Below, piece by piece: positions 18,481-48,504 of a DNA stretch of 64,000 nt. Positions within the stretch are counted from its first letter, which is position 1. Every line of letters begins with the position of its first letter. Source of the stretch: Desulfomonilia bacterium. Its GTDB lineage: Bacteria; Desulfobacterota; Desulfomonilia; UBA1062. The DNA is taken from contig DATCTV010000004.1 of the NCBI GenBank assembly GCA_036567785.1, positions 62,001-126,000 on the forward strand, written 5' to 3'. Below the pieces are notes generated by a model that saw nothing but the letters and a program-made list of their open reading frames with translations, ran no database searches and was not told the origin of the DNA. The position numbers were made by a program, and so were the translations under genes.

Positions 18481-20031
18481 TTATTCGACCAGTTTGATTA
18501 ACAGCTTCTTTCCGAATATCTTGGAAAATGCATCCCTGTGGTTCTGAGCACCCCATGTCTCCAGGTCACAACCTCTGTCGCATTCAAGTTCCAGAATGAC
18601 CGTGTTCTTATCACCCATCCTGAATTTTGCATGGGCAATAAGTCCAGCATGGCTTCTGTCCAGGCTCTCGGCAATCCGCAGCAGAATCGAATGCACCCTG
18701 ATCGTTTCGATAGAGCGTGTATCAAGACCGGCCGTTTCGCCGCCTTTTCTTCCAGGAGAACCTCGTCTGTGAAAAAAGACAGAGGCCGCCATTATGGCTA
18801 TCTCCTTCTGGTTGAACCCCAGAAGGTCTGCATTCCTTATGAAATAGCTGCTGTTGGCGTGGTGGTTGCTGTATGAAAGGAACGCCCCTATATCATGGAG
18901 CAGGGCAGAGTATTGAAGCAGTTCCCTCCTGCCGCTGCCCTGCCTGTGAAGCCATATATTCCTTCCCGTATCAAACATTTCAAGGCAAAGGCGCGCCACA
19001 GTCTCTGCATGATTTTCATCAAAACCGCATTTTCTGCCAAGGCTTAATACGCTCCTCATCCTTATCGATACCTCTTGAGACTCCTCTCCGTATTCCCTGT
19101 CAAGATAGTCGATAAGGAGCCCGTCCCTTAATTCACGCGAGCTGATTCTGAGCTCGTTTATCCCTGCCTGGGACATGATTGTTTCAAGGATTGCCGCACC
19201 GGCTACTATTATATCCGCCCTTTTCGGATTCATTCCCGGAACGTTCCGCCTTTCCTTGAGAGGCAGAGAACACAGAAGCTTCGATATCTGCTTCAGGTCT
19301 TTGAGCTTGAGCAGCGATTTCCTGCTTTCATCACCCTTATGGATCACCTGCCTTGCTATCTCGGCAAGACTTTGTGCAGTGCCCGAACTACCGTATGCAT
19401 CCTTTATCCTGAATGACCTTATTGTCTGGACAGGCCTGATACTGGCGTTTTTTACATGTTCACAAATCATTTCATATCTTTTGGGGGTGACGGGGGCATG
19501 GACATCTTCGATAAATTTCATCGAAAGCCTTATGACACCGAGCCTCATGCTGTCGAGATAACTGTACTCCCTTCCGTCACCGATAATAATTTCCGTGCTC
19601 CCGCCGCCAATGTCTATGAAGAGCGTGGGGCCGTCTATCCTGTCGGCACGAGAAACGCCCAGGTATATGAGCCTGGCCTCTTCCTTGCCCGAGACCACGT
19701 TCATCTCGATTCCGGCCTCGTTCTTCAGCAGTTCCAGAAACTCCTTCTGATTCGATGCGTCCCTTGTCGCAGAGGTTGCAACAGCTACTATCTCGTCCGC
19801 ACCAAAGGTTTTTGCCATGCCAACGAAATTTCTGCATACTGCAACCGCCCTTTCCATCGCCTCCGGTTTAATCCGGTTGTCGTCGAACTCTCCTTCTCCG
19901 AGCCTTATCATCTCTTTCTGACGGGAAAGCTCGGTATGAGACCTGCCGCCGTCAAAGCGCGCCAGCATTATGCGCACGGAATTCGTACCCATGTCTATGA
20001 ACGCGACTGTTTTTGGTTTTTTTTTCTTCAC
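18481..20031 (-). CDS. ppx: Exopolyphosphatase (Ppx/GppA family) with HD domain
   Basis: A 516-residue enzyme that releases phosphate from the ends of polyphosphate, or hydrolyses pppGpp. AFIDMGTNSVRIMLA is the first ASKHA phosphate loop, AVATSATRDASNQ and FIDIGGGSTEIIIG the second; YGSSGTAQSLAEI follows. The C-terminal third carries an HD domain (LLHDIGAFLSYSNHH, ILLRIAESLDRSH). The start is GTG and overlaps the stop of the upstream metallophosphoesterase-HD gene (GTGA), so translation is coupled. It closes the operon ppk1 - CHAD - phosphoesterase/HD - ppx, which favours polyphosphate as the substrate over pppGpp. Confidence 0.92.
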   Translation of the reverse strand: MKKKKPKTVAFIDMGTNSVRIMLARFDGGRSHTELSRQKEMIRLGEGEFDDNRIKPEAMERAVAVCRNFVGMAKTFGADEIVAVATSATRDASNQKEFLELLKNEAGIEMNVVSGKEEARLIYLGVSRADRIDGPTLFIDIGGGSTEIIIGDGREYSYLDSMRLGVIRLSMKFIEDVHAPVTPKRYEMICEHVKNASIRPVQTIRSFRIKDAYGSSGTAQSLAEIARQVIHKGDESRKSLLKLKDLKQISKLLCSLPLKERRNVPGMNPKRADIIVAGAAILETIMSQAGINELRISSRELRDGLLIDYLDREYGEESQEVSIRMRSVLSLGRKCGFDENHAETVARLCLEMFDTGRNIWLHRQGSGRRELLQYSALLHDIGAFLSYSNHHANSSYFIRNADLLGFNQKEIAIMAASVFFHRRGSPGRKGGETAGLDTRSIETIRVHSILLRIAESLDRSHAGLIAHAKFRMGDKNTVILELECDRGCDLETWGAQNHRDAFSKIFGKKLLIKLVE

Positions 20032-37482: not shown

Positions 37483-37749
37483 TTAATTCTCGTCTTCGTT
37501 ATTTGTCTTTGTAAGCAGTCTTGTCTGCCGCTCCCTGAGCCATGAAACATCGCTTTTCGATATGAGCTTTCTTGCCGTTCTCCTTAACAACCCATCCGGA
37601 TTCGAAAGGTCATTAAGCGTGAGACCTGCCGCGATGCTCAAAGCAGTGCCCAGTATTCCTCTCCCCAATGGCATTCCGGCCCTCGGGCAGCCCGGCATGC
37701 CGCCGCCTCTTAATCTTGTCCGCATCATCCTTCCTAATCCATACGGCAT
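37483..37749 (-). CDS. Small basic protein of unknown function
   Basis: An 88-residue protein starting at 37749 (GGAGG eight bases upstream; a longer frame from 37803 lacks such a site). MPYGLGRMMRTRLRGGGMPGCPRAGMPLGRGILG is a glycine-, methionine- and arginine-rich opening that recalls the glycine motif of the DUF5320 neighbour. The rest is helical and basic. The two genes flank each other by 38 bases and probably belong together. Function unknown. Confidence 0.6.
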   Translation of the reverse strand: MPYGLGRMMRTRLRGGGMPGCPRAGMPLGRGILGTALSIAAGLTLNDLSNPDGLLRRTARKLISKSDVSWLRERQTRLLTKTNNEDEN

Positions 37750-38141
37750 CTTCTCATCCTCCCGCCTGAACCTCTTGTTCTTTGCCTGTTCCGGTATCTG
37801 CACATGCAGCCCGGCATTACGAATTGTTCGTGAAGGTTTTCATTACCGAGCCAGGCTTCAATCACCTCCGAGCTGTCGCCTGAAACAAAACCGATAACTT
37901 TTATTCCAAGAGATTCAATCGCCTTTTCAAGGGATCTCGATATAGCCCCGCATATGAGAGCTGACAGAGACAGGTCCTTAAGCCACTGTGCCCTTTCATT
38001 CACCTGAACAAGCCTGATGTCTTCAGTTTTCTGATCTATGATGCGCCCGTTTTCCGCGCTGATGATCAAAACCGTCTGCGCCACATCGAATACCGGCGCT
38101 ATCCTTCCGTTCCATACCGTGAATGCTGCTTTGATAATCAT
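37734..38141 (-). CDS. NifX-like cofactor-binding protein with Cys/Arg tail
   Basis: A 135-residue protein of the NifX/NifB-C family: MIIKAAFTVWNGRIAPVFDVAQTVLIIS and LSALICGAISRSLEKAI. The C-terminal 30 residues, MPGCMCRYRNRQRTRGSGGRMRRCRMD, are unusual: three cysteines among many arginines, possibly for a metal or nucleic acid. It overlaps the next gene by 16 bases. The start has no ribosome site; the 170 bases before it hold a palindrome and the end of the regulator gene. Confidence 0.78.
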   Translation of the reverse strand: MIIKAAFTVWNGRIAPVFDVAQTVLIISAENGRIIDQKTEDIRLVQVNERAQWLKDLSLSALICGAISRSLEKAIESLGIKVIGFVSGDSSEVIEAWLGNENLHEQFVMPGCMCRYRNRQRTRGSGGRMRRCRMD

Positions 38142-38251
38142 GATTTTAATATTTCATATTTCATGCCAGATGGTATTTCCTGATAAATTATCTATAAAGT
38201 ATTATTAAATCAAATGGTTGGAGTAATATGAATAATCACTTAAATTAATCC

Positions 38252-38270
38252 ATGGTCGCAATATTGCACC
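38252..38270. promoter_or_regulatory. Palindrome between sigma-54 regulator and NifX-like gene
   Basis: TGGTCGCAATATTGCACCA contains the perfect ten-base palindrome GCAATATTGC with TGGT/ACCA flanks offset by one base. It lies about 110 bases before the NifX-like start, the usual distance for an enhancer-binding activator site. A second half-match (ATGGTTGCAA) follows at about 38286. It may bind the regulator encoded upstream. No good sigma-54 promoter was found in the right direction, so this is tentative. Confidence 0.4.
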
Positions 38271-38311
38271 ATGATATGAGATTGATGGTTGCAATTATGC
38301 GTCTGCAGCTT

Positions 38312-39682
38312 CTATCTTTCAGGAATTATGATATTCAGTTTTTTTATTTTTCTGAAAAGCGTACTCTTATGTATCCCGAGTTCTCTGGCGGTTTTCAGCC
38401 TGTTGTAAGAGGTCTTCTCAAGGACTTTCCTTATTGTTTCCGCCTCAAGAATGTTCCTTGTTGTCCTCATATCGGTAATGCATGAGGCTTTTTCCTGCTC
38501 CGGCATGAATTCCGACTGGATATGTTCTATGTCTATCTGACCTTTTGTGCAGGTAATGAAAGCCCTCTCTATGATATTTTCCAGTTCCCTGACGTTTCCC
38601 GGCCAGTCATGAGCCATGAGCAGGGATATGGCTTCGGAAGATATTCCTTCGATTCTTTTGTTCTGGATCAGATTGAACCTTTTAATGAATTCTTCTGCAA
38701 GCAGAGGTATGTCTTCCTTTCTGCGTCTGAGAGGCGGCAGTTCCAGCCTGACCACATTCACCCTGTAATACAGATCCTCCCGGAAGGCACCCTGTTTTGT
38801 CATCGCTGAGAGATCTTTATTTGTTGCGACAATGACCCTTGCATCTGTCTTTTCCGGCCTGGTTGAACCAAGTGGCTCAAATGTCCTGTCCTGAAGCACT
38901 CTCAAGAGCCTCACCTGAAGAGCAGGAGAAATGTCGCCGATTTCATCCAGGAAAATGGTTCCTGATTTTGCTATTGCGAATCTGCCCGGCTTGTCCTTTC
39001 TTGCTCCTGTAAACGCCCCGGCCTTGTATCCGAACAGCTCTGATTCAAGGAGACTGTCAGGAAGCGCCGCACAATTGACTGCAATGAAAGGATGATTCTT
39101 CCTGAAGCTCAGGGAATGTATCGTTCTTGCCACGAGCTCTTTTCCTGTACCTGTTTCTCCGAGAAGAAGTACCGTGCTGGGGCTCGATGCAATCGCCGGA
39201 AGAACATCGAATATTCTGTGCATCAGGGGCGAGTGGCTGATTATGTCACCTATCTTGAATCTGCCTTCGACCTCGCGCCTCAGATTTTCTATCTCGCTCA
39301 GGTCCCTGAATGTTTCAGCTCCTCCGATTACCTCGCCTTTTTCATTCTTGAACATCGCAGTTGAGACGCTTATCGGAACCTTGTCGCCTTTTGAATTTAT
39401 TATGTATCCTGACTTTCCTATAACAGGTTTGCCCGATTTAAGGGTCTTTTTCAATGCGCATTCGGATTCACACATGCTTGACCGGAAGACGTCCGAGCAG
39501 CTTTTACCGATAGCGTCAGTTCGCGACACTCCGGTTATATTTTCAGCCGCCCGGTTGAACGAGGTTATTATCCAGTTCTCATTTACGGTAAAAACACCGT
39601 CTGATATGCTTTCCAGTATTGACTGGGTTGCTTCCTTCCTTCCTCCGGTCAATTCTGACGATGTTTTACCTTTAGCCTTCAT
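38312..39682 (-). CDS. Sigma-54-dependent activator with PAS domain
   Basis: A 456-residue regulator. A PAS domain occupies residues 20-135, with a cysteine group FRSSMCESECALKKT that could hold a metal or sense redox. The AAA+ domain follows: LLGETGTGKELVARTIH (Walker A), ESELFGYKAGAFTGARK (with GAFTGA, the sigma-54 contact), FLDEIGDISPALQVRLL (Walker B). The tail from about 415 is a Fis-type helix-turn-helix (RLKTARELGIHKSTLFRKIKK). The ORP operons of Desulfovibrio are controlled by a regulator of this type, and this gene lies inside the similar region. Confidence 0.9.
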   Translation of the reverse strand: MKAKGKTSSELTGGRKEATQSILESISDGVFTVNENWIITSFNRAAENITGVSRTDAIGKSCSDVFRSSMCESECALKKTLKSGKPVIGKSGYIINSKGDKVPISVSTAMFKNEKGEVIGGAETFRDLSEIENLRREVEGRFKIGDIISHSPLMHRIFDVLPAIASSPSTVLLLGETGTGKELVARTIHSLSFRKNHPFIAVNCAALPDSLLESELFGYKAGAFTGARKDKPGRFAIAKSGTIFLDEIGDISPALQVRLLRVLQDRTFEPLGSTRPEKTDARVIVATNKDLSAMTKQGAFREDLYYRVNVVRLELPPLRRRKEDIPLLAEEFIKRFNLIQNKRIEGISSEAISLLMAHDWPGNVRELENIIERAFITCTKGQIDIEHIQSEFMPEQEKASCITDMRTTRNILEAETIRKVLEKTSYNRLKTARELGIHKSTLFRKIKKLNIIIPER

Positions 39683-39713
39683 GTAGATCCCTTGCTGCTT
39701 GAACCCTTAATCT

Positions 39714-40076
39714 TTAATGTTCGTGGCAGCCGTGTTCATGGAGTTCACAGGCAACTCCGGAATCCGTGAGGTTTCCTGTAAGCCAGGCCAGCATCACCTC
39801 CTTCACATCACCGGAACAGCCCCTCACCACATCAATGCCTACGCTGTTCAGCACGTTCACCGCACCCTGCCCCATATTGCCTGCAAGCATGAGCGTCACT
39901 CCCATCTGCTTAAGAGTACCGGCGATATTGGACCTGCAGCCGCAGCCTGCCGGGGAACTGACAATTTCCTGCGAAACGATCGCATTCTTCTCATCCACTG
40001 TAAAAACAGTGAAATACTCGCAATGGCCGAAGTGTTCATCTATACTGTTCTGTCTTGACGGTAATGCTACTTTCAT
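39714..40076 (-). CDS. NifX-like cofactor-binding protein
   Basis: A 120-residue protein. Start at 40076 has AAGGAG nearby and gives MKVALPSRQNSIDEHFGHCEYFTVF, the ORP-like opening; SSPAGCGCRSNIAGTLKQMGV and LMLAGNMGQGAVNVLNSVGI follow, then a histidine/cysteine tail (CELHEHGCHEH). The cysteine- and histidine-rich ends suggest metal binding. Of the three NifX-like genes this one is most like the H-F-G-H-C form of ORP-type proteins. It lies just behind DUF134. Confidence 0.85.
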   Translation of the reverse strand: MKVALPSRQNSIDEHFGHCEYFTVFTVDEKNAIVSQEIVSSPAGCGCRSNIAGTLKQMGVTLMLAGNMGQGAVNVLNSVGIDVVRGCSGDVKEVMLAWLTGNLTDSGVACELHEHGCHEH

Positions 40077-40086
40077 TTCTCTCTCC

Positions 40087-40488
40087 TTAAGATTTTTTGA
40101 TATTCCTTCTGCAATACGGACATCTTCCGCCACCGTTCATACCTTCACAGTGAACTGACGCCCTTTTGCAGTTTCCGCACGGACTCATGCCTTCCTTGAT
40201 TATGAAAATATCACCCCCGGTTATTCTCAGGGCCTTGCTGTTCACAAGAAAATCGGCGATCTTCTGCTGAGCCGATTCGATTATCCTTCCGAAGGTCGGG
40301 CGGGATATGTTCATCATGGCCGCTGCCTGTTCATGATACATTCCTTCATAGTGTGCAAGTCTGACAGCCTCGAATTCATCCAGCGTAAGCTGAACCTCTT
40401 CCCGGGAAGAAGCCTTCACCCCTTCCGGCCTGAAACACGTAATCTCAGGCATCAAACCTATGTTTCTCGAGCACTTTGGTCTGGGCAA
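40087..40488 (-). CDS. DUF134 DNA-binding protein
   Basis: A 133-residue protein with the family opening MPRPKCSRNIGLMPEITCFRPEG, a sigma-factor-like helix-turn-helix (LDEFEAVRLAHYEGMYHEQAAAMMNISRPTFGRII) and a cysteine-rich tail (CGNCKRASVHCEGMNGGGRCPYCRR) for zinc or Fe-S. DUF134 genes are often next to NifX-like genes and are likely regulators. The start is TTG, six bases after GAGGAG. A 20-base palindrome lies 22 bases upstream and may be its own operator. Confidence 0.88.
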   Translation of the reverse strand: MPRPKCSRNIGLMPEITCFRPEGVKASSREEVQLTLDEFEAVRLAHYEGMYHEQAAAMMNISRPTFGRIIESAQQKIADFLVNSKALRITGGDIFIIKEGMSPCGNCKRASVHCEGMNGGGRCPYCRRNIKKS

Positions 40489-40615: not shown

Positions 40616-42127
40616 TTATTCTTCCTTCGTCTTTCTTGATGGACGCCTGAAATCCGGCAGCAAGGATTCATCAACAAAAATCCTGTAAGGCCGCTTTATA
40701 TTCCATCTTTGTTCCCTTTGATCATATCTGCCTATTGTCCTGCCTGAAAAAATAATTTTCTGATATTTTGTATTGCCTCTTTCAAATACCGCCACATCGA
40801 TTTGTTTCTTTTCAGGCAGAAGCCTTCTCATAATGCCCGAATGCGACAGGGCGTGATAAATATCATGGAGAATCCCTGATATAAAAAGTATTGCCGGCTT
40901 GCGCATCATCAAACAATACATTGCAGCAATACCAGCGGCTCCACCGTAAACTTTGCGAAACCGGCCATCTCTTATTGATGCGCAAACCCGGCCGATAATA
41001 TCATCAGCTTCGATTGTATATGGATCGGGAGCTGCATTGTTATCACCTTTTGTCTGAATCCTGGAGCCGTTTATTCCAGTAATCCTGTGGACAATCACAT
41101 TTTCATCTGCGCCTGTTTTGTAGCATACAACATCGCCTGTCCTTATAGTTGAGCCTTCGTAAGGAACAACGGTAATCATTTCAGGCTCGATAAATGTCGG
41201 ATTCATGCTTACACCGCGATACACAAAATGGATATGGTTCTTATTTTTTCTTTTTTTGATAAAATCTCTTTCAGAAGGTCTTTCATTTTCCTTATGCGCA
41301 TTTTTTCCATGCGCTCCCACAGACTGGAGTGCCTTTTCCATCTCCTTCCAGAATTCACCGGTAAGACTCAAGTGAAGTTTGAACGCGGGTACAGACTCCG
41401 CAAGGGAATTTGCCCTTTTGATGAAGTTCCTGGCGAGTTCCTGATTTTCCTTGACCGAGAAGATATTGGACCGGGTAACATGTTCGAGCGTGTCTATTAT
41501 CATTGCCTTTGCATGTACTTTATCGATGGGTTCAACAAAGTCATCCCGAGACTGTTCCAGAAAAAATATCGCATCAAGAGGAATTGTTTCCTCCACCTTC
41601 CAGCTTCCGCCCGGTCCCTGCATATAAAACCTGCTCCAGGTAGGCCATGGATGGGCGCAGAAACCGCCATATCCGTCAGGCAGTATAATTGTCGCATCGT
41701 CAGAATATGAAATCCAGGGATTGGGCAGCCTCATGCTTGCAGTCGATTTACCGACAGTCCCGGGACCCGCCATGATTACTCCCGATCCGTTAAAAGAGCA
41801 TAATGCCCCGTGAATCAGCATGCCGCCCTTTTCTGTTGCATCGATAACGACAGCCTTGGCTATTCTCTCGACCTGGATATTGAACATTTCCATATTGTCG
41901 GCCGTATTTAGTATGCAGAGGACAGGCTCATCGTCCTTTTCAGGTATAACCAGTTTTTTTTCGCCTTTTTTATGCTCCCTTGTGCATACGACGATCTTTC
42001 TGCCTGTTTCTTCACCCTGCTCAAGCTGCATGATTTCCGCAAACTTTTCCACAAATACTTCCGATTCATAATCCGCCGCGGCAATTGTGTATCTAATCGA
42101 ATCTGTAAGCCTGAGTATGGGATTCAT
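40616..42127 (-). CDS. HPr-kinase-like protein (ScmC-like) fused to S26 signal peptidase
   Basis: A 503-residue two-domain protein. Residues 1-270: HPr kinase-like ATPase with GPGTVGKST at 121-129 and ISYSDDATII, WPTWSRF and FFLEQSRDD as seen in the ScmC/HprK-like group of peptide-modification cassettes. Residues 298-390: S26 signal peptidase of the SipW/ER kind, with Ser307 in GVSMNPT, His347 in VIVHRIT (lysine replaced by histidine) and Asp362 in KGDNN. A hydrophobic stretch follows (AAGIAAMYCLMM, PAILFISGI). I infer peptide phosphorylation or ATP-driven handling plus leader cleavage. It closes the RiPP cassette. The fusion may be a specific trait of this branch. Confidence 0.8.
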   Translation of the reverse strand: MNPILRLTDSIRYTIAAADYESEVFVEKFAEIMQLEQGEETGRKIVVCTREHKKGEKKLVIPEKDDEPVLCILNTADNMEMFNIQVERIAKAVVIDATEKGGMLIHGALCSFNGSGVIMAGPGTVGKSTASMRLPNPWISYSDDATIILPDGYGGFCAHPWPTWSRFYMQGPGGSWKVEETIPLDAIFFLEQSRDDFVEPIDKVHAKAMIIDTLEHVTRSNIFSVKENQELARNFIKRANSLAESVPAFKLHLSLTGEFWKEMEKALQSVGAHGKNAHKENERPSERDFIKKRKNKNHIHFVYRGVSMNPTFIEPEMITVVPYEGSTIRTGDVVCYKTGADENVIVHRITGINGSRIQTKGDNNAAPDPYTIEADDIIGRVCASIRDGRFRKVYGGAAGIAAMYCLMMRKPAILFISGILHDIYHALSHSGIMRRLLPEKKQIDVAVFERGNTKYQKIIFSGRTIGRYDQREQRWNIKRPYRIFVDESLLPDFRRPSRKTKEE

Positions 42128-42157
42128 ATCTTTCGAATTAATTGCATACTGAATTTC

Positions 42158-43324
42158 TTAACTTAGCGCCTTCTTTTTCCTCGACTGAGGGAACCGTCCT
42201 TCTTCATGGGCATCAAGGCACATCGCATGCGGCCAGATGAGTTTTCCGAAGTTTGAATAGTTCTGAACAAGGCAGCCTGTGCGGCATTTGCGCATGAATA
42301 TGCAGTTACGGCACAGTTCCGGATAATTCGAGAAATCCATGAGATCCTTTCTGAGCCTTACAATCGCTGGATGATTGAGCCATATGTCCCTTATCGAATC
42401 TTCTCCGAGCCTGCCATAAACGAGTTCGGGCATTGTCCTGCCGATTCCGCACAGTGCAATCGCTCCCGAACCAAGGATTCCGAGTATATGATCCACCCCG
42501 CAATCACCTGCATTGGCGTTTGAAACAAGCTCTTTGACAGGCCTTAAAGAAAGCGGGATATTAATTATCACGGGTATGCGGCATATCTCTTTCAGAGGCC
42601 CCCTCACAAAATCCGACAGTTCCAGTATTTCCTTCAGCGTAAGCGTCTCGTTTCTCTTGTGCATGAGAGCTCCGCGGCCGTTATTGGTAACAGGATTGAG
42701 CTTGACCGAACCCGCGCCGAGAGACGCAGCCATCTGCACGAGATCTTTCACCTCTTTCACATTATCCCTGTGTGGTGACATGATTATCTGAACGTTCTTA
42801 TAGCCCGCATCGACGAGATGCTTGAGGCCTTTGAGTGCTGCCTTGTACGCCCCTTTTACACCTCTGAATTTGTCATGAGAGCCCTCATGGATGCTATCAA
42901 GACTTATCGAGACAAAACCTATATTTGTCTCCTCCTTCAGGAACCAGGCCATATCCTCATCTATCAGGGTACCGTTGGTTTCCATGTTAAGACTTAAACC
43001 CTCTTCGGAAAGCATCAATGCAATTTCCTTGAACCCGGGATGTATCATCGGCTCACCGCCTGTGAGCTTGGCCTTGTTCAGGCCGAGAGGCCTGGCTTCT
43101 CTTACGGCCTGCTTTAAAAGATCAATATCCACCACTTCGTCAGGAGATGGCTTGCCTCCTGCAAATGTTGGAGTTATCCAGCAATGCCTGCACCTCAAGT
43201 TACAGGTGTCGGATATGTAAAGATAAAACGAACGCAAAGCGGGTATTCCTTCGGGCAGGTCCAGACCGGCCCGGTTGTTTGGAATATCCACTTCGCTGCA
43301 GTCACACAGATCACTCATTCTCAA
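42158..43324 (-). CDS. Radical SAM/SPASM peptide maturase, ScmF-like
   Basis: A 388-residue enzyme. CNLRCRHCWI carries the CxxxCxxC [4Fe-4S] site; KLTGGEPMIHPG is the SAM strand; ETNGTLID and SISLDSIHEGSHDKFRG follow. The SPASM tail has a cysteine set including CGVDHILGILGSGAIALCGIG and CRNCIFMRKCRTGCLV for auxiliary clusters. Such enzymes install thioether or carbon-carbon links in ribosomal peptides. It overlaps the second radical SAM gene by four bases. From memory of the family names, it fits the SynChlorMet ScmF type. Confidence 0.85.
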   Translation of the reverse strand: MRMSDLCDCSEVDIPNNRAGLDLPEGIPALRSFYLYISDTCNLRCRHCWITPTFAGGKPSPDEVVDIDLLKQAVREARPLGLNKAKLTGGEPMIHPGFKEIALMLSEEGLSLNMETNGTLIDEDMAWFLKEETNIGFVSISLDSIHEGSHDKFRGVKGAYKAALKGLKHLVDAGYKNVQIIMSPHRDNVKEVKDLVQMAASLGAGSVKLNPVTNNGRGALMHKRNETLTLKEILELSDFVRGPLKEICRIPVIINIPLSLRPVKELVSNANAGDCGVDHILGILGSGAIALCGIGRTMPELVYGRLGEDSIRDIWLNHPAIVRLRKDLMDFSNYPELCRNCIFMRKCRTGCLVQNYSNFGKLIWPHAMCLDAHEEGRFPQSRKKKALS

Positions 43325-44427
43325 ACCTCTTGAAGATATTTCTTATAGCATACAAGCGGATCTATGGCGTTTAACACGCCGGTCTTGGACATCACGGTTC
43401 CGGGGCAGCCGCCCGTGCAGAAGCCCGCATATTCACAGCCACGGCATTCTTCGACTTCGGTTATGGGAATGCGCCGGCGCTCTCTTACAATATTTATATT
43501 CGGATGAGCCAGCCAGACGTCCCTGAGCGAAACTTCACCCATCCTTCCCATGACCAGTTCAGGCAGCATATTGCACGGAACATATGTGCCGTTGTGAAGG
43601 ACTGCCATTTTATTGAACACGCCGCCGCAGGAGCAGAGCGTTCCCCTGCCCTTCATCGAAGTCTCGCCTCTTTTCAATCTTTCAGTTATTTCCGCCATCA
43701 TTCTGGCTCTTGTCAGAGGACCGGCCTGTGAGGCTATCTTTCCTCCATATTTCTCGCTTATACCGATAAGTGCGGCCATTGCTCTTTTTCTCTCATCCAC
43801 TGTCAGTATGATGTCCTGACCGTTACAGCGCGCGCTTCCCATATAGTCGGCCTCGTTCGTGCTGAATCCGGACAGACCGATGTCATCTATGAGCAGGGCA
43901 GCGATATTTTCGAGATCATCAACATTATGACGGTTTATTGTAACCCTTACAGTGACCGGAAAGCCGTTGCTCTTAAGAAGCCTGAGTGCAGTTATCGCCC
44001 TTTCGAAGCTTTCTGGAGGCCTGCTCTTATCATGGATCTCAGCTTTTGAGCCGTCAATCGATATCTGTATGGAATCAAGCCTCGGCCTTCGTTTGCCTTT
44101 TGAAAATTCGCTTATGGTCTTTTCATCAATGAGCGTGCCGTTGGAAAGAATCTTGTACCGCATCCTGTTCTCTATGACGCTGTCGATGATTTCGAACAGG
44201 TCTTTCCTGACAAACACCTCACCGCCGCTCAGGCAGACCTTCTGCACCCCTATACTGCCGGCCTCCCTGAAAAGAGCCAGCCAGTCAGCAGCAGGAAGGT
44301 CCTGAGCCTTTTCCATGCTCTCGGCATAAAAGCAATATCGGCATTTAAGGTTGCATTTTCCGGTAAGACATATGTCGAGTTCCCGGGGGGCGGATGATAT
44401 CCCGGGATAGCCCTCATGGGATTTCAT
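43321..44427 (-). CDS. Radical SAM/SPASM peptide maturase, ScmE-like
   Basis: A 368-residue enzyme. ELDICLTGKCNLKCRYCFYAE carries the cluster motif; VCLSGGEVFVRKDL, SNGTLID and SIQISIDGSKAEIHD follow. The SPASM tail reads GTLCSCGGVFNKMAVLHNG, PCNMLP and CRGCEYAGFCTGGCPG, enough for two auxiliary clusters. It overlaps the PqqD-like gene by 14 bases and the next radical SAM gene by four. A pair of such enzymes in one cassette suggests two different crosslinks or a two-step reaction on the neighbouring precursor. Confidence 0.85.
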   Translation of the reverse strand: MKSHEGYPGISSAPRELDICLTGKCNLKCRYCFYAESMEKAQDLPAADWLALFREAGSIGVQKVCLSGGEVFVRKDLFEIIDSVIENRMRYKILSNGTLIDEKTISEFSKGKRRPRLDSIQISIDGSKAEIHDKSRPPESFERAITALRLLKSNGFPVTVRVTINRHNVDDLENIAALLIDDIGLSGFSTNEADYMGSARCNGQDIILTVDERKRAMAALIGISEKYGGKIASQAGPLTRARMMAEITERLKRGETSMKGRGTLCSCGGVFNKMAVLHNGTYVPCNMLPELVMGRMGEVSLRDVWLAHPNINIVRERRRIPITEVEECRGCEYAGFCTGGCPGTVMSKTGVLNAIDPLVCYKKYLQEV

Positions 44428-44680
44428 TAATGAAGTTTTCTCCCAGCATATTCATGAAATTTTCAGCATCGGCTTTAGCTTTTTCAAGTTCGACGCCGCT
44501 GAAGCTTTTTACAAGGAAGGCTGCTATTTCATCGAGCGTCCGGGGCTGTTCAATAAAGCCCCAGACAAGCACACCCGTCGCGTTTATTATAATACCTGAA
44601 TCAACATCCGGATTGTAGAGTACCGCACCATCCTCTCCCTCGTCACGGAATGAGACGCCAGGGTTAGACTTAAACATCAA
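44414..44680 (-). CDS. PqqD-like RiPP recognition protein (ScmD-like, first)
   Basis: An 88-residue protein. FRDEGEDGAVLYNPDVDSGIIINATGVLVWGFIEQPRTLDEIAAFL is the PqqD/RRE fold: strands with D/N-x-x-G, then N-x-T-G-x-x-x-W and the winged-helix part (VELEKAKADAENFMNMLGE). It binds precursor leaders and brings them to radical SAM enzymes. Its ATG overlaps the precursor stop (ATGA), so precursor and chaperone are made together. A second PqqD-like gene lies upstream of the precursor. Confidence 0.85.
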   Translation of the reverse strand: MMFKSNPGVSFRDEGEDGAVLYNPDVDSGIIINATGVLVWGFIEQPRTLDEIAAFLVKSFSGVELEKAKADAENFMNMLGENFINEIP

Positions 44681-44892
44681 TGTGCGGTTCCAGCCTCACA
44701 ATTATTTGTTGCAGCTGGTCCATCATAACATCCGTCACCGGCACCTGTACCATTAGCGCTGCAATCCTGAAAATCACCCGAACCTGTCCCCTCACAATCC
44801 CCAATGGAATTACGAGTACCATCCAGCTTCATCACCCTAGGTGCTTCGTAAACCGGCTTTGAATTATCTGCGTTCTTTTTGTCTTTTGACAT
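44677..44892 (-). CDS. RiPP precursor peptide, four-cysteine Gly/Asp-rich core
   Basis: A 71-residue peptide. AGGAG stands six bases before the ATG at 44892, which is chosen over a TTG at 44916. The leader is lysine-rich and has Y15-x-x-P18 (KPVYEAPRVMKL), the motif that PqqD-like domains recognise in several RiPP leaders. The core from about residue 28 is rich in Gly, Asp, Asn and Thr with no lysine or arginine, and has cysteines at 33, 44, 55 and 65, spaced 11, 11 and 10 residues (GDCEG, QDCSA, DGCYD, NNCEAG). Regular single cysteines beside Gly and Asp suit radical-SAM thioether crosslinks. It is flanked by both PqqD-like genes and followed by both radical SAM genes. Mature structure and target are unknown. 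Confidence 0.82.
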   Translation of the reverse strand: MSKDKKNADNSKPVYEAPRVMKLDGTRNSIGDCEGTGSGDFQDCSANGTGAGDGCYDGPAATNNCEAGTAH

Positions 44893-45040
44893 CATAATCT
44901 CCTTACTTTCATTCAATTGTTATGAATATTTTATATTTCGATACTCAAAAGTGAAAAAAGTCAACCTTCTTGGTCGAACATTCATATTATTCAATGGATT
45001 ATTCTCCTAAGAGTTATCCCATGAGTATTTTTTACAGGCA

Positions 45041-45328
45041 TCAGCATTTCACCCTGTATCCGAAAAAGCCGTTTTTCCTGAGGTTTTCGACAAGTTCGGC
45101 AACATCCTTATCGATATTCTCAGGCACGCCGGAAAAGGTCTCTTTTATCTGGCTGATTATCTGTCCCACGTTTTTCCTGCCATCCGCCGCTTTCCATATG
45201 AATTTCCCGGTATTGTTGACGGCAAGCGAATTGCCGGTGTCCATATTGACCAGCACGGCCCAGCCGTCATTTTCATCCTGATAGATAACATCAGGGTTCG
45301 GATAAGGGATATATTCATAGTCAGGCAT
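45041..45328 (-). CDS. PqqD-like RiPP recognition protein (second)
   Basis: A 95-residue protein. YPNPDVIYQDENDGWAVLVNMDTGNSLAVNNTGKFIWKAADG is again the PqqD fold, followed by VGQIISQIKETFSGVPENIDKDVAELVENLRKNGFF. It is the first gene of the cassette, 148 bases before the precursor; that gap has a possible TTGACT -35 box at 44959-44964 on the minus strand but no clear -10. Two PqqD proteins for two radical SAM enzymes suggests one recognition protein per enzyme. Confidence 0.82.
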   Translation of the reverse strand: MPDYEYIPYPNPDVIYQDENDGWAVLVNMDTGNSLAVNNTGKFIWKAADGRKNVGQIISQIKETFSGVPENIDKDVAELVENLRKNGFFGYRVKC

Positions 45329-45360
45329 TTTATTAATCTATAAGATTATGTGCTGTCTGT

Positions 45361-45387
45361 AAAACAAAAAAGTCCGTTCGTCACGGA
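45361..45387 (-). terminator. Rho-independent terminator after znuB-like gene
   Basis: On the minus strand TCCGT and ACGGA pair around a five-base loop and are followed by CTTTTTTGTTTT. It ends the znuA-C-B transcript and separates it from the RiPP cassette, so the cassette must have its own promoter in the 30 bases before 45328. Confidence 0.7.
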
Positions 45388-45397
45388 TTCGTTTTAT

Positions 45398-46258
45398 TCA
45401 TGATTCGCCGCGCATATAAGTGATAAAGGAGCTTATGACAAACCATATGAAGGCTGCCAGAATTATGGTGGCCCCGGTTGCGGTATATGCCCATTCCTGC
45501 GCGGAAATTACAAGTCCTGCAGCCGCAGATGTCACACTTATAAGTATCGACCACCAGAACATGGCCCCGGCGGTACGAGACAGATTTCTTGCCGCCGCAG
45601 CAGGCACAATGAGAAGGGCCGTTACGAGCAGCACCCCCACTGCCCTTACCGAAAAGATGACAACAACCGAAAGCAGCGCCGCATACATGTACTGATAAAG
45701 GGCAACTTTTATCCGGTGCGCCCTGGCAAGTGAATGATTGAGACCGATATAAAACATGCGGTTATATCCCAGACCGATAAATACAAGAATTACAAGTGCA
45801 AGTACAGCAAGCATGACTATGTCGGCCGTGCTTATTGTAAGTATATCGCCGTACAGAAACAGCTGCATGTCGCGTGCAATGCTTCGATCCCGGCTGACTA
45901 TTGCGATTCCGAAGGCGACAACAGCCGAGAAAATAACGCCGACAACGGTATCCATGGAAAGGGAACTCTTCCGCTGAAGCGCCGTTATTGCAATGCCAAC
46001 AAGAACGGCGAAACCAACCATTGTAAGATAAGGATTGAGCGAGGCTATAAGTCCGATTGCAACACCTGCAAACGCCGAATGGCTGATTGCATCGGTAAAG
46101 AACGCCATCCTGAAATTTACGACCTGTATGCCCATGACTGCAGCCACGGGAGCCAGAAGCAAAAGCCCTATGAATGCCTGCTGCATGAATCTCGCCTCCA
46201 TGCATTCGAAGGGCAGAATGACGGGGACAATGCCGTATATGGCAGACAGGTCAGGCAT
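45398..46258 (-). CDS. znuB: Zinc/manganese ABC transporter permease
   Basis: A 286-residue membrane protein of the ABC-3 family. Eight or so hydrophobic segments are visible (for example FIGLLLLAPVAAVMGIQVV, SFSTVVGVIF-type and LLVTALLIVPAAAARNL), with the family block FFTDAISHSAFAGVAIGLI. It moves the metal through the inner membrane, powered by the ZnuC-like ATPase. Start 46258 follows AGAGG and overlaps the ATPase stop by eight bases; an earlier ATG at 46285 lacks a site. Zinc is favoured because the operators are Zur-like. Confidence 0.85.
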   Translation of the reverse strand: MPDLSAIYGIVPVILPFECMEARFMQQAFIGLLLLAPVAAVMGIQVVNFRMAFFTDAISHSAFAGVAIGLIASLNPYLTMVGFAVLVGIAITALQRKSSLSMDTVVGVIFSAVVAFGIAIVSRDRSIARDMQLFLYGDILTISTADIVMLAVLALVILVFIGLGYNRMFYIGLNHSLARAHRIKVALYQYMYAALLSVVVIFSVRAVGVLLVTALLIVPAAAARNLSRTAGAMFWWSILISVTSAAAGLVISAQEWAYTATGATIILAAFIWFVISSFITYMRGES

Positions 46259-47057
46259 CAGGAACCTCTCTGCCATTTTTTTCATCGCATTCGATACAGC
46301 CTTCCTTGACGGGTTTGAAGGTCAACGCACCCGTATGCGGGCCGAATATTTCAAGAAGAATGTCCTTATTGAAAATGTCTCTTGGCGGACCTTCCGCAAC
46401 AACCTTTCTATTGAGGCATATTACATGGCTTGCATGATAGGCTACCATTCCGAGGTCATGGCTTACCATGAGCTGGGTAAAACCCTTTTTCATCCTGAGG
46501 TGCTCGAGAAGATGACAGAAAACCTGACCTCCCTGCACATCTACGCCTGCATCCGGTTCATCAAGAATAAGTATCTCGGGTTCCCTCTGGATAGCCAGGG
46601 CAAGAAGAACCCTCTGCATCTCACCGCCCGAAAGCGCCCCCAGCCTTCTTTTCAAAAGATGCTCCGCCTTGACGTAATAAAGCAGTTCGGCAGCGGATTC
46701 TCTCATCCTGCGATTTATTCCAAGCCAGAAAGGTTTTTTCTGGACGCCCATCGACAGGAATTCGACGACAGTCAAAGGGATACCCCTGTCAAAGCTGAAC
46801 CTCTGCGGGACATATCCTATCCTGATCTCTTCAGGATGGTTGTCTGAGTTGAAGCGGATATTTCCTGAATATTTTATCTCACCAAGGAGCGCCAGAAGGA
46901 GCGTCGTCTTACCTGCCCCGTTCGGACCGATAATGGCCGTACACTCTCCTTTCGGGACATGGGCATTGATGTCGTCGAGAATGGAAACCTCTCCCATTCT
47001 TACGCTCAAGGCGCTTAATTCAATGGCTGACCTGCCCTGTGGATATCCCTTTTCCAT
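46251..47057 (-). CDS. znuC: Zinc/manganese ABC transporter ATPase
   Basis: A 268-residue ABC ATPase. AIIGPNGAGKTTLLLALLG is Walker A, IGYVPQRFSFD the Q-loop, LGALSGGEMQRVLLALAI the signature and PEILILDEPDAGVDVQ Walker B, with VSHDLG the switch histidine. A His/Cys/Glu-rich end (KEGCIECDEKNGREVPDA) follows. It begins two bases after the ZnuA-like stop and overlaps the permease start. Confidence 0.88.
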   Translation of the reverse strand: MEKGYPQGRSAIELSALSVRMGEVSILDDINAHVPKGECTAIIGPNGAGKTTLLLALLGEIKYSGNIRFNSDNHPEEIRIGYVPQRFSFDRGIPLTVVEFLSMGVQKKPFWLGINRRMRESAAELLYYVKAEHLLKRRLGALSGGEMQRVLLALAIQREPEILILDEPDAGVDVQGGQVFCHLLEHLRMKKGFTQLMVSHDLGMVAYHASHVICLNRKVVAEGPPRDIFNKDILLEIFGPHTGALTFKPVKEGCIECDEKNGREVPDA

Positions 47058-47058
47058 C

Positions 47059-48012
47059 CTATATGCTTCCCAGTGTCCTTTGTATCGTTACGATATTTCT
47101 TCTCATAACCCTTTCATAATAATCAAGACCTGCGTTATCAGGACCCGTGGCACACGGATCGAGTATTGCTGCCGGAATGCCGGTCTCTTTCGATATAGCC
47201 TCTGGTGTCCTTGAAGAGAACTGAGGCTCATAGTAGATTGCCCCTGCCCTGTATTTTCTGATCTTTCCGATTATCGAAATCATCTCCGATGCCGATGGCT
47301 CCATGCCGGGATGCGACTGAAGAACGGCGACTATTCTGAGCCCCGTATCACGGGCAAGGTAATCAAACGCCCCGTGCTGTGTGACGATATTCCTGTTTTT
47401 GAGCTTTTTAACCAGAGAAGTAAATTCGTCTGCCAGGCGGTCCATCTTCAGTTTATACTCTGTTGCATTTCTGCCGTAGATTCCGGCTCCTTTCGGATCG
47501 GCCTTTGAAAGCCCCCGGGCGATGTTGACTGCAAGCAGTCCATACATATGAGGACTGGCAAACAGGTGCGGATTAAGACCTTCGTGAAGATGGACTTTTT
47601 CTTCGTGATGCCCTTTCATATCGTGGTCCTCTTCAGTGTATTCAAGCAGGTTCCTGATACCTGCCGAACTGTCAATGATTAGAAGGCGGCTGCTCGCCCT
47701 TTTTACCGGAGCACCAAGGAATTCTTCCATACCCAGACCGTTTATAACGAGTACATCCGCTTTTGCTATCTTCTGCATGTCCCCCGGCGTCAGCGAATAG
47801 TCATGAGGACAGCCCAGATTTGACGGCAGCATCAGTTCTACGTTCATGCCACTGCTTCCCTTAACCACATTCCTGGTTATCTGATATATGGGAAATGTCG
47901 TGCAGAGGACATTAACCTTTTCCCCGGAGGCAAATGCTCCTCCGGCAATAACAAGAATGAAAAAGGATACCAGGACAGAAAAGATACATTTCCTTCCGAT
48001 ACTCACAAGCAT
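47059..48012 (-). CDS. znuA: Zinc-binding periplasmic protein (ZnuA/TroA-like)
   Basis: A 317-residue solute-binding protein. GGAGG stands seven bases before the ATG at 48012; a longer frame reaches back over the operator and is rejected. FSVLVSFFILVIAGGAFA is the Sec signal. The TroA fold is shown by PSNLGCPHDYSLTPGD (metal histidine), INGLGMEEFLG, a histidine-rich loop (HDMKGHHEEKVHLHEGLNPHLFASP) typical of zinc carriers, and VTQHGAFDYLARDTG. The histidine loop points to zinc over manganese. Confidence 0.9.
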   Translation of the reverse strand: MLVSIGRKCIFSVLVSFFILVIAGGAFASGEKVNVLCTTFPIYQITRNVVKGSSGMNVELMLPSNLGCPHDYSLTPGDMQKIAKADVLVINGLGMEEFLGAPVKRASSRLLIIDSSAGIRNLLEYTEEDHDMKGHHEEKVHLHEGLNPHLFASPHMYGLLAVNIARGLSKADPKGAGIYGRNATEYKLKMDRLADEFTSLVKKLKNRNIVTQHGAFDYLARDTGLRIVAVLQSHPGMEPSASEMISIIGKIRKYRAGAIYYEPQFSSRTPEAISKETGIPAAILDPCATGPDNAGLDYYERVMRRNIVTIQRTLGSI

Positions 48013-48036
48013 GCTCGGCCTCCGAAAATCGCTTAT

Positions 48037-48103
48037 TGCAAATTCATTTGCATTATGATTAATAACAATCAGCATGTCAATCGTTAATGCAATTCATTTC
48101 GCA
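48037..48103. promoter_or_regulatory. Two Zur-like operators in the znuA/zur divergent region
   Basis: TGCAAATTCATTTGCA (48037-48052) is a perfect 7-2-7 palindrome. A related copy, TGCAATTCATTTCGCA (48088-48103), differs by shift and one base. They lie between the divergent znuA and Fur-family genes, 24 bases from each start, so binding would block both. The pattern fits a Fur-family repressor; since the operon is a zinc carrier, Zur is the likely protein. Confidence 0.7.
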
Positions 48104-48126
48104 ATAAGATTCTGAAAGGCTTAAGG

Positions 48127-48504
48127 ATGTATAAAAGAAACACAACCCAGAGAAAACTGCTTGAAGAGATCATATCCTCAAGCCCGACCCCCTTGAGTGT
48201 TCAGGAAATCCTGTCCGAAGGAAAAAAGAGCATAAAAACGCTCAATCTGGCAACCGTTTACAGAAACCTTAAGATTCTCATAGATTCGGAATGGCTCAAG
48301 GTCGTCTCTCACCCGGCGCTTGGCAACCTCTATGAAATGAAGGAAAAAAGCCATCACCACCATTTTCACTGCCACAAATGCGACAGGGTTTACCAGCTTG
48401 ATGGGTGTCCTTTAAAAAAGACGGGCATCTCGCCACCCGGATTTGTGCTTCAGGACCATGAGGTTTACCTCTCGGGCATCTGCGCAGACTGCAACAGGCG
48501 CTGA
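48127..48504 (+). CDS. zur: Fur-family metal regulator, Zur-like
   Basis: A 125-residue repressor. TTQRKLLEEIISSSPTPLSVQEI and LNLATVYRNLKILIDSEWL form the winged helix; SHHHHFHCHKCDRVYQLDGC carries the histidine/cysteine metal site, and SGICADCNRR the second zinc pair. The divergent znuA gene and the operators between them indicate zinc sensing. Iron sensing (Fur) cannot be excluded from sequence alone. Confidence 0.85.
   Translation: MYKRNTTQRKLLEEIISSSPTPLSVQEILSEGKKSIKTLNLATVYRNLKILIDSEWLKVVSHPALGNLYEMKEKSHHHHFHCHKCDRVYQLDGCPLKKTGISPPGFVLQDHEVYLSGICADCNRR

Follow-up and report, generated by a model that had tools for sequence, protein, structure and literature searches.

The window analysed here comprises 64,000 nucleotides of a contig from a Desulfomonilia bacterium (DATCTV010000004.1). 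Six co-directed open reading frames (ORFs) lie on its minus strand between positions 45328 and 40616 and appear, from gene content, best family matches and a tree, to form a divergent SynChlorMet (Scm)-type cassette for a ribosomally synthesised and post-translationally modified peptide (RiPP), a cassette type common to bacteria and methanogens. The order of transcription is PqqD1, precursor, PqqD2, two radical S-adenosylmethionine (SAM) enzymes with SPASM domains (rSAM-1 and rSAM-2) and a kinase-S26 peptidase fusion. An initial annotation had proposed a six-gene, one-strand cassette with overlapping genes, and all six frames lie exactly where it placed them, the enzymes with family matches.

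45041..45328, minus strand: PqqD1, ScmD-like RiPP recognition element, 95 amino acids (TIGR04248 66.6 bits, Pfam PqqD 56.7 bits)
44677..44892, minus strand: precursor gene, 71 amino acids (stop codon 44677-44679)
44797..44892, minus strand: precursor leader, residues 1-32, MSKDKKNADNSKPVYEAPRVMKLDGTRNSIGD, with the Y-x-x-P...L motif
44680..44796, minus strand: precursor core, residues 33-71, four degenerate C-x-x(x)-G repeats of 10-11 residues
44414..44680, minus strand: PqqD2, second RiPP recognition element, 88 amino acids (Pfam PqqD 40.4 bits, ScmD 32.2 bits)
43321..44427, minus strand: rSAM-1, ScmE-like radical SAM/SPASM enzyme (TIGR04250 390.4 bits)
42158..43318, minus strand: rSAM-2, ScmF-like radical SAM/SPASM enzyme (TIGR04251 310.8 bits)
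40616..42127, minus strand: kinase-S26 peptidase fusion, 503 amino acids
41307..42127, minus strand: ScmC/HprK-like kinase domain, about residues 1-273 of the fusion (TIGR04249 168.1 bits)
40616..41266, minus strand: S26 (SEC11/archaeal-type) peptidase domain, about residues 288-503 of the fusion (TIGR02228 66.4 bits)

The precursor stop codon shares bases with the PqqD2 ATG at 44677 (TGATG), PqqD2 and rSAM-1 overlap by 14 nt, and a ribosome-binding site AAGGAG precedes the precursor. The peptide carries the features first ascribed to it, which are Y15-x-x-P18 in the leader, cysteines at 33, 44, 55 and 65, and zero Lys or Arg after Cys33. Its core reads CEGTGSGDFQD CSANGTGAGDG CYDGPAATNN CEAGTAH.

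The system itself is not new, as ScmA, ScmC, ScmD, ScmE and ScmF are already named in NCBIfam. The models are TIGR04248 (ScmD), TIGR04249 (ScmC), TIGR04250 (ScmE), TIGR04251 (ScmF) and TIGR04252 (ScmA), with NCBI curated cut-offs of 100, 125, 400, 400 and 35 bits, respectively; the cut-off of the peptidase model TIGR02228 is 51.85 bits. The search with these models, which the initial annotation had called for, places ScmC above its cut-off (168.1 vs 125 bits), while ScmE and ScmF are by far the top-scoring families of the two radical SAM enzymes (runner-up 133 and 106 bits) yet stay below theirs with 390.4 and 310.8 of 400 bits. The ScmD cut-off of 100 bits is reached by neither PqqD (66.6 bits for PqqD1, 32.2 bits for PqqD2), and the window precursor matches neither TIGR04252 nor any other Pfam or NCBIfam model. 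Pfam detects PqqD, Radical_SAM and SPASM twice each, the second SPASM match being slightly below cut-off. Counterparts of parts A, C, D, E and F are present together in one cluster, and the E and F parts group with Scm cassettes in gene maps and in the tree. By NCBI thresholds the cassette thus counts as a partial member only, and by best match and tree as a sister branch. The proposal of a SynChlorMet-type cassette is supported by these matches, by the gene content and by the conservation of the small ORF described below. The same annotation had presented the system as a set of protein families not known to have a product; we likewise found no described product, and the statement needs correction in that a precursor model, TIGR04252, already exists. 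No open-access paper on the SynChlorMet cassette or its product was found, with subscription papers possible, and a paper mapping radical SAM enzymes (PMC9062424) does not mention it.

For comparison, 32 clusters with both ScmE and ScmF were taken from several bacterial phyla and archaea. In the phylum of the window, ScmC (TIGR04249) lies above cut-off in 18 of 395 genomes. An ScmE alignment gave nine more cassettes, in records of Chloroflexota, Acidobacteria, Methanospirillum, Deltaproteobacteria, Nitrospirae, Chlorobiaceae and Lentisphaeria, and whole-genome searches around three of these nine gave additional ones; L065 and L048 proved to be one contig. With the window peptide as sole query, BLAST detects homologues in eight of the regions collected first, and a hidden Markov model (HMM) built from these found further ones. 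Applied to 20 loci outside its training set, the HMM detects a peptide in 18. One of the remaining two, L152, gained a peptide after retraining, and the other, L150, is a contig of 3.4 kb. In 72 control loci that surround other radical SAM genes, with 9,189 ORFs in all, the HMM gives zero matches at E <= 1; after retraining it gives three, all weak (E 0.4-0.9). An HMM trained without the window peptide or its subclade recovers this peptide among 1,135 frames of the window with E = 7.3e-12, the next-best frame being at 0.056. Because of this recovery, the window precursor is not a chance ORF. Missing conservation of the small ORF in related genomes had been named beforehand as a possible refutation; it is conserved with its cysteines in 31 of the 32 cassettes, with L150 as the sole exception. 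The ScmA model, 49 positions long, matches 7 of 16 precursor homologues at E<=0.1, and the top match among the homologues listed is 1.3e-6 with 28.6 bits against the cut-off of 35. Since these matches are weak, we conclude that ScmA is known and that the precursor family is far wider than this model.

Throughout the family, leaders contain a Lys-rich stretch followed by Y/W-x-x-P-x-x-x-x-L. The distance from the Tyr to the first cysteine (Cys1) is 17-22 residues in 36 of 39 homologues, and a Gly is present at -4 to -2 relative to Cys1 in 35 of 39. The core consists of tandem C-x-x-G-x-x-A/P-x-x-x repeats, in which Gly occupies +3 in 81% and +6 is Ala or Pro in 55%. A Cys-Cys spacing of 10 is commonest (79 of 171), followed by 11 (30). 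Cores contain between 2 and 14 cysteines and are rich in Gly, Ala, Thr and Ser. The initial annotation had placed presumed crosslinks at the cysteines or at nearby Asp or Gly carbons; the core residues conserved family-wide are Cys, Gly +3 and Ala/Pro +6, and not Asp.

The catalytic motifs of the enzymes are intact. ScmE retains CxxxCxxC and all seven SPASM cysteines in 32 of 32 homologues; in ScmF, CxxxCxxC is present in all 33 homologues, and every one of the SPASM cysteines in 32 or 33 of them. By sequence, the closest solved relatives of ScmE are SkfB and then PqqE. The kinase domain contains H106, G126-K127-S128-T129 and D143-D144. Across 36 ScmC sequences, H106, K127 and D143 are conserved to 100% and D144 to 94%, which corresponds to the conserved His-Lys-Asp-Asp motif that lasso-peptide kinases require (PMC9266682). 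A further conserved motif, HPxPTWS (residues 159-165), is specific to ScmC. In the S26 domain, S307, M308, H347, G361 and D362 (Ser-Met box, His, GDN box) are conserved to 100%, and D368 is also invariant (n = 32); its 66.4 bits for TIGR02228, the archaeal/SEC11-type signal peptidase model, exceed the cut-off of 51.85. In the S26 proteins the Kyte-Doolittle maximum over 19 residues is mostly below 1.6 (1.45 in the window). The lack of a convincing membrane span in them fits a soluble leader peptidase better than a signal peptidase of the secretory type. For the fusion, AlphaFold2 gives a model with a mean predicted local distance difference test score of 87.7 and a predicted template-modelling score of 0.58; loose placement of the two domains probably accounts for the latter. 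A fold search with this model finds resemblance to HprK/P structures and to human SEC11; as the query comprises two domains, the TM-scores (template-modelling scores) are modest. A sequence search of solved structures with the ScmC-S26 profile returns signal peptidases only, and the relation to HprK comes from the fold search.

Both ScmC, with some weak matches, and the S26 peptidase are found in 29 of the 32 cassettes, and two of the three cassettes lacking the peptidase are cut by contig ends. The peptidase usually has a gene of its own, and none of the Scm models matched names it. One PqqD per cassette is the rule. Two PqqDs had been put forward as a hallmark of the system, which does not hold: both occur in 6 of 32 cassettes only and are a trait of the subclade to which the window belongs. 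In a tree of 65 ScmE and ScmF sequences, the window ScmE forms a clade of five with L055, L056, L150 and L157 (support 100/99), and the window ScmF groups with the same four (100/100). L157 stems from a search in the phylum of Methanospirillum. All members of this subclade are two-PqqD cassettes, and one reading is that each radical SAM enzyme here has its own recognition protein. The kinase-peptidase fusion is present in the window, L055, L056 and L157. In L052 (3201-4949) S26 and ScmC are fused in reverse order, apparently independently. L048 (7345-10815) contains precursor-ScmC pairs duplicated in tandem (A-C-A-C), each precursor with 14 cysteines, and L066 (2524-8487) likewise has several such pairs. 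Because precursor and ScmC duplicate together, we argue that ScmC acts on the peptide. Near 24 of the 32 cassettes there is an ABC (ATP-binding cassette) exporter (Pfam ABC_membrane and ABC_tran), and near 22 a PF14907 nucleotidyltransferase.

Loci without full ScmE and ScmF nearby also occur in well-assembled genomes. L041 (7232-8939) has ScmC, precursor and S26; L049 and L050, both from genome G386, have ScmC, with a precursor homologue in L049. These are possibly remnants or cassettes served in trans.

The cassette shares parts with several characterised systems. In common with SynChlorMet it has an ScmC above cut-off, best matches to ScmD, ScmE and ScmF, and a precursor with the repeat type and position of ScmA; it differs in ScmA, ScmD, ScmE and ScmF being under cut-off or missed, in two PqqDs, in the ScmC-S26 fusion and in the lack of an adjoining exporter. 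With the lasso peptides paeninodin (PadeK/ThcoK) and pseudomycoidin (PsmK/PsmN) it shares the Y-x-x-P leader, a PqqD-type recognition element and an HprK-like kinase with His-Lys-Asp-Asp. Most Scm relatives additionally share the nucleotidyltransferase, whose likeness to PsmN is at annotation level, and the ABC exporter. In the pseudomycoidin cluster, PsmN is an annotated nucleotidyltransferase that occurs with a kinase and adds hexoses to the phosphorylated peptide (PMC9266682). Unlike lasso clusters, the window has two radical SAM/SPASM enzymes, a Cys-repeat core and no C-terminal Ser in the peptide, and neither an Asn-synthetase-like cyclase nor a B2 transglutaminase-like protease was found among the six genes and the immediate neighbours scanned. 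As for the sactipeptide and ranthipeptide enzymes SkfB, StsB and PapB, SPASM radical SAM enzymes are paired with a Cys-containing precursor; at gene level, a SPASM enzyme with all cluster cysteines and a Cys-containing core are both present. Here, in contrast, there are two SPASM enzymes, separate PqqDs, a kinase and a C-x-x-G decamer repeat, and thioethers are predicted only. The combination of PqqD and a SPASM radical SAM enzyme on a short peptide recalls pyrroloquinoline quinone biosynthesis (PqqA/D/E), from which the window differs by its multi-Cys core, the absence of a Glu-Tyr pair and other accessory genes.

We consider it probable that the cassette is an Scm-type RiPP pathway of the two-PqqD, fused kinase-peptidase subclade and that it works as follows, with bond type, phosphorylation, cleavage site and export inferred from sequence. 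PqqD1 and PqqD2 would bind the basic Y-x-x-P leader and hand the peptide to both radical SAM/SPASM enzymes; the pairing of PqqD and enzyme is perhaps one-to-one in this subclade, whereas a single PqqD would serve both in most cassettes. ScmE and ScmF would then form local radical crosslinks in every C-x-x-G-x-x-A repeat of about 10 residues. Cys thioethers of the sactionine or ranthionine type are the likeliest bond, because Cys alone is common to all repeats. The HprK-like domain would next phosphorylate a core Ser or Thr, the cytosolic S26 domain would remove the leader near the conserved Gly (Gly31) just before Cys33, and an ABC transporter encoded elsewhere in the genome would finally export the product, most likely a multiply crosslinked, phosphorylated peptide. 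More tentatively, and with rather less confidence than we would give to an even case, the cassettes may represent a distinct RiPP class of bacteria and methanogens. In such a class, two radical SAM enzymes would crosslink each of the tandem C-x-x-G decapeptide repeats. Tailoring enzymes of the lasso type would then phosphorylate the peptide and, in most relatives, nucleotidylate or glycosylate it as well, and a soluble peptidase of the SEC11 type, here fused to the kinase, would release it. If true, radical-SAM crosslinking and lasso-type phosphorylation would be united in a single peptide. Beyond the existing models, the comparison adds the wider precursor family and its repeat, the near-constant S26 peptidase, the His-Lys-Asp-Asp kinase motif, the links to exporter and PF14907, the subclade with two PqqDs and the fusion, and the distribution across several phyla. 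A catalogue entry becomes a small testable pathway, with likely candidates named for leader peptidase and peptide kinase and the co-travelling parts mapped, including those in methanogenic archaea.

Several observations weigh against this proposal. Four of the five Scm parts are under the NCBI curated cut-offs or are missed by their model. The window core is degenerate, with Gly at +3 in the last two repeats only and at +4 in the first two, and no core Ser or Thr position was found uniformly conserved across the precursors. Neither a cassette-type ABC exporter nor a PF14907 gene is located beside the cassette or in the 64-kb window, and the sole PF14907 gene of the genome belongs to a different RiPP-like locus, on contig 11. 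Product and bond are predictions from sequence and model. The same cassette could instead install C-C links, or epimerise or desaturate residues, and leave the cysteines free, disulfide-paired or metal-binding. ScmE indeed scores higher against WgkB (133 bits) and PqqE (117 bits) than against the sactipeptide enzyme StsB (107 bits), and Gly +3 and Ala/Pro +6 are conserved along with Cys. We nevertheless regard this as unlikely: no residue other than Cys is shared by all repeats of all homologues, Cys is the target of several peptide maturases of the SPASM type, and HMM rank among radical SAM families is no predictor of bond type.

A comparable, slightly stronger doubt attaches to the idea that ScmC is a regulator or an ATP-driven chaperone of HprK fold and not a peptide kinase. 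HprK proteins work as phosphatases too, and the conserved HPxPTWS motif is peculiar to ScmC; the conservation of His-Lys-Asp-Asp, the co-duplication of precursor-ScmC pairs and the nucleotidyltransferase gene near relatives, as with lasso kinases, make it improbable. A peptide linked to zinc or another metal, such as a metallophore or a metallothionein-like product, is suggested by the Cys-rich core and by a ZnuABC-like operon whose zinc ABC genes (45398-48075) lie 69 nt ahead of PqqD1 and share its strand. This is very unlikely, as ZnuB or ZnuA homologues are near none of the other cassettes, and between operon and cassette there are a terminator-like hairpin and a promoter-like site. The chance that the small ORF is spurious and that the cassette modifies another protein is negligible: the absence of Pfam and NCBIfam matches for the window peptide would fit it, and it is opposed by the held-out HMM result, by presence in 31 of 32 cassettes, by the ribosome-binding site and by the stop-start overlap with PqqD2. 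The preferred reading remains a crosslinking and phosphorylating Scm-type pathway.

The following sites between and ahead of the genes were obtained from a consensus scan only.

45373-45387, minus strand: terminator-like hairpin preceding the PqqD1 promoter-like site
45335..45363, minus strand: promoter-like site ahead of PqqD1
44977-44961, minus strand: terminator-like hairpin with T-run, upstream of the precursor
44957-44928, minus strand: promoter-like sites between this hairpin and the precursor start

The hairpin and promoter-like site ahead of PqqD1 suggest that transcription from there is independent of the zinc ABC operon. Rfam gives zero RNA families across 38-49 kb of the window. The ZnuBCA-like operon lies directly upstream of the cassette on the minus strand (45398-48504 region), with a divergent Fur-family-like gene at 48127-48504 on the plus strand. 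A zinc link as a feature of the family was rejected, since, among the cassettes compared, ZnuA/ZnuB adjacency is confined to that of the window.

The second RiPP-like locus of the genome, on contig 11, spans L059:7953-18932 and L162:997-4120. Its peptides (L059:7953-8135, 18512-18718 and 18750-18932) have leaders of the type W-x-x-P-E-L-x-V-L...GCK, and two that were scanned have zero NCBIfam matches. Three radical SAM proteins are encoded there, one of 669 amino acids with a weak ScmC/HprK-like match, together with a PqqD and a fusion of S26 peptidase and GNAT acetyltransferase. An MsbA-like ABC exporter (664 bits with the cassette-exporter HMM) and the PF14907 nucleotidyltransferase occur together in this locus and could serve the window cassette in trans. 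Just downstream of the cassette, at 37734-40488 of the window, lie a DUF134-like gene, NifX/MrpORP-like dinitrogenase-cofactor-domain genes and a PAS/sigma-54 regulator.

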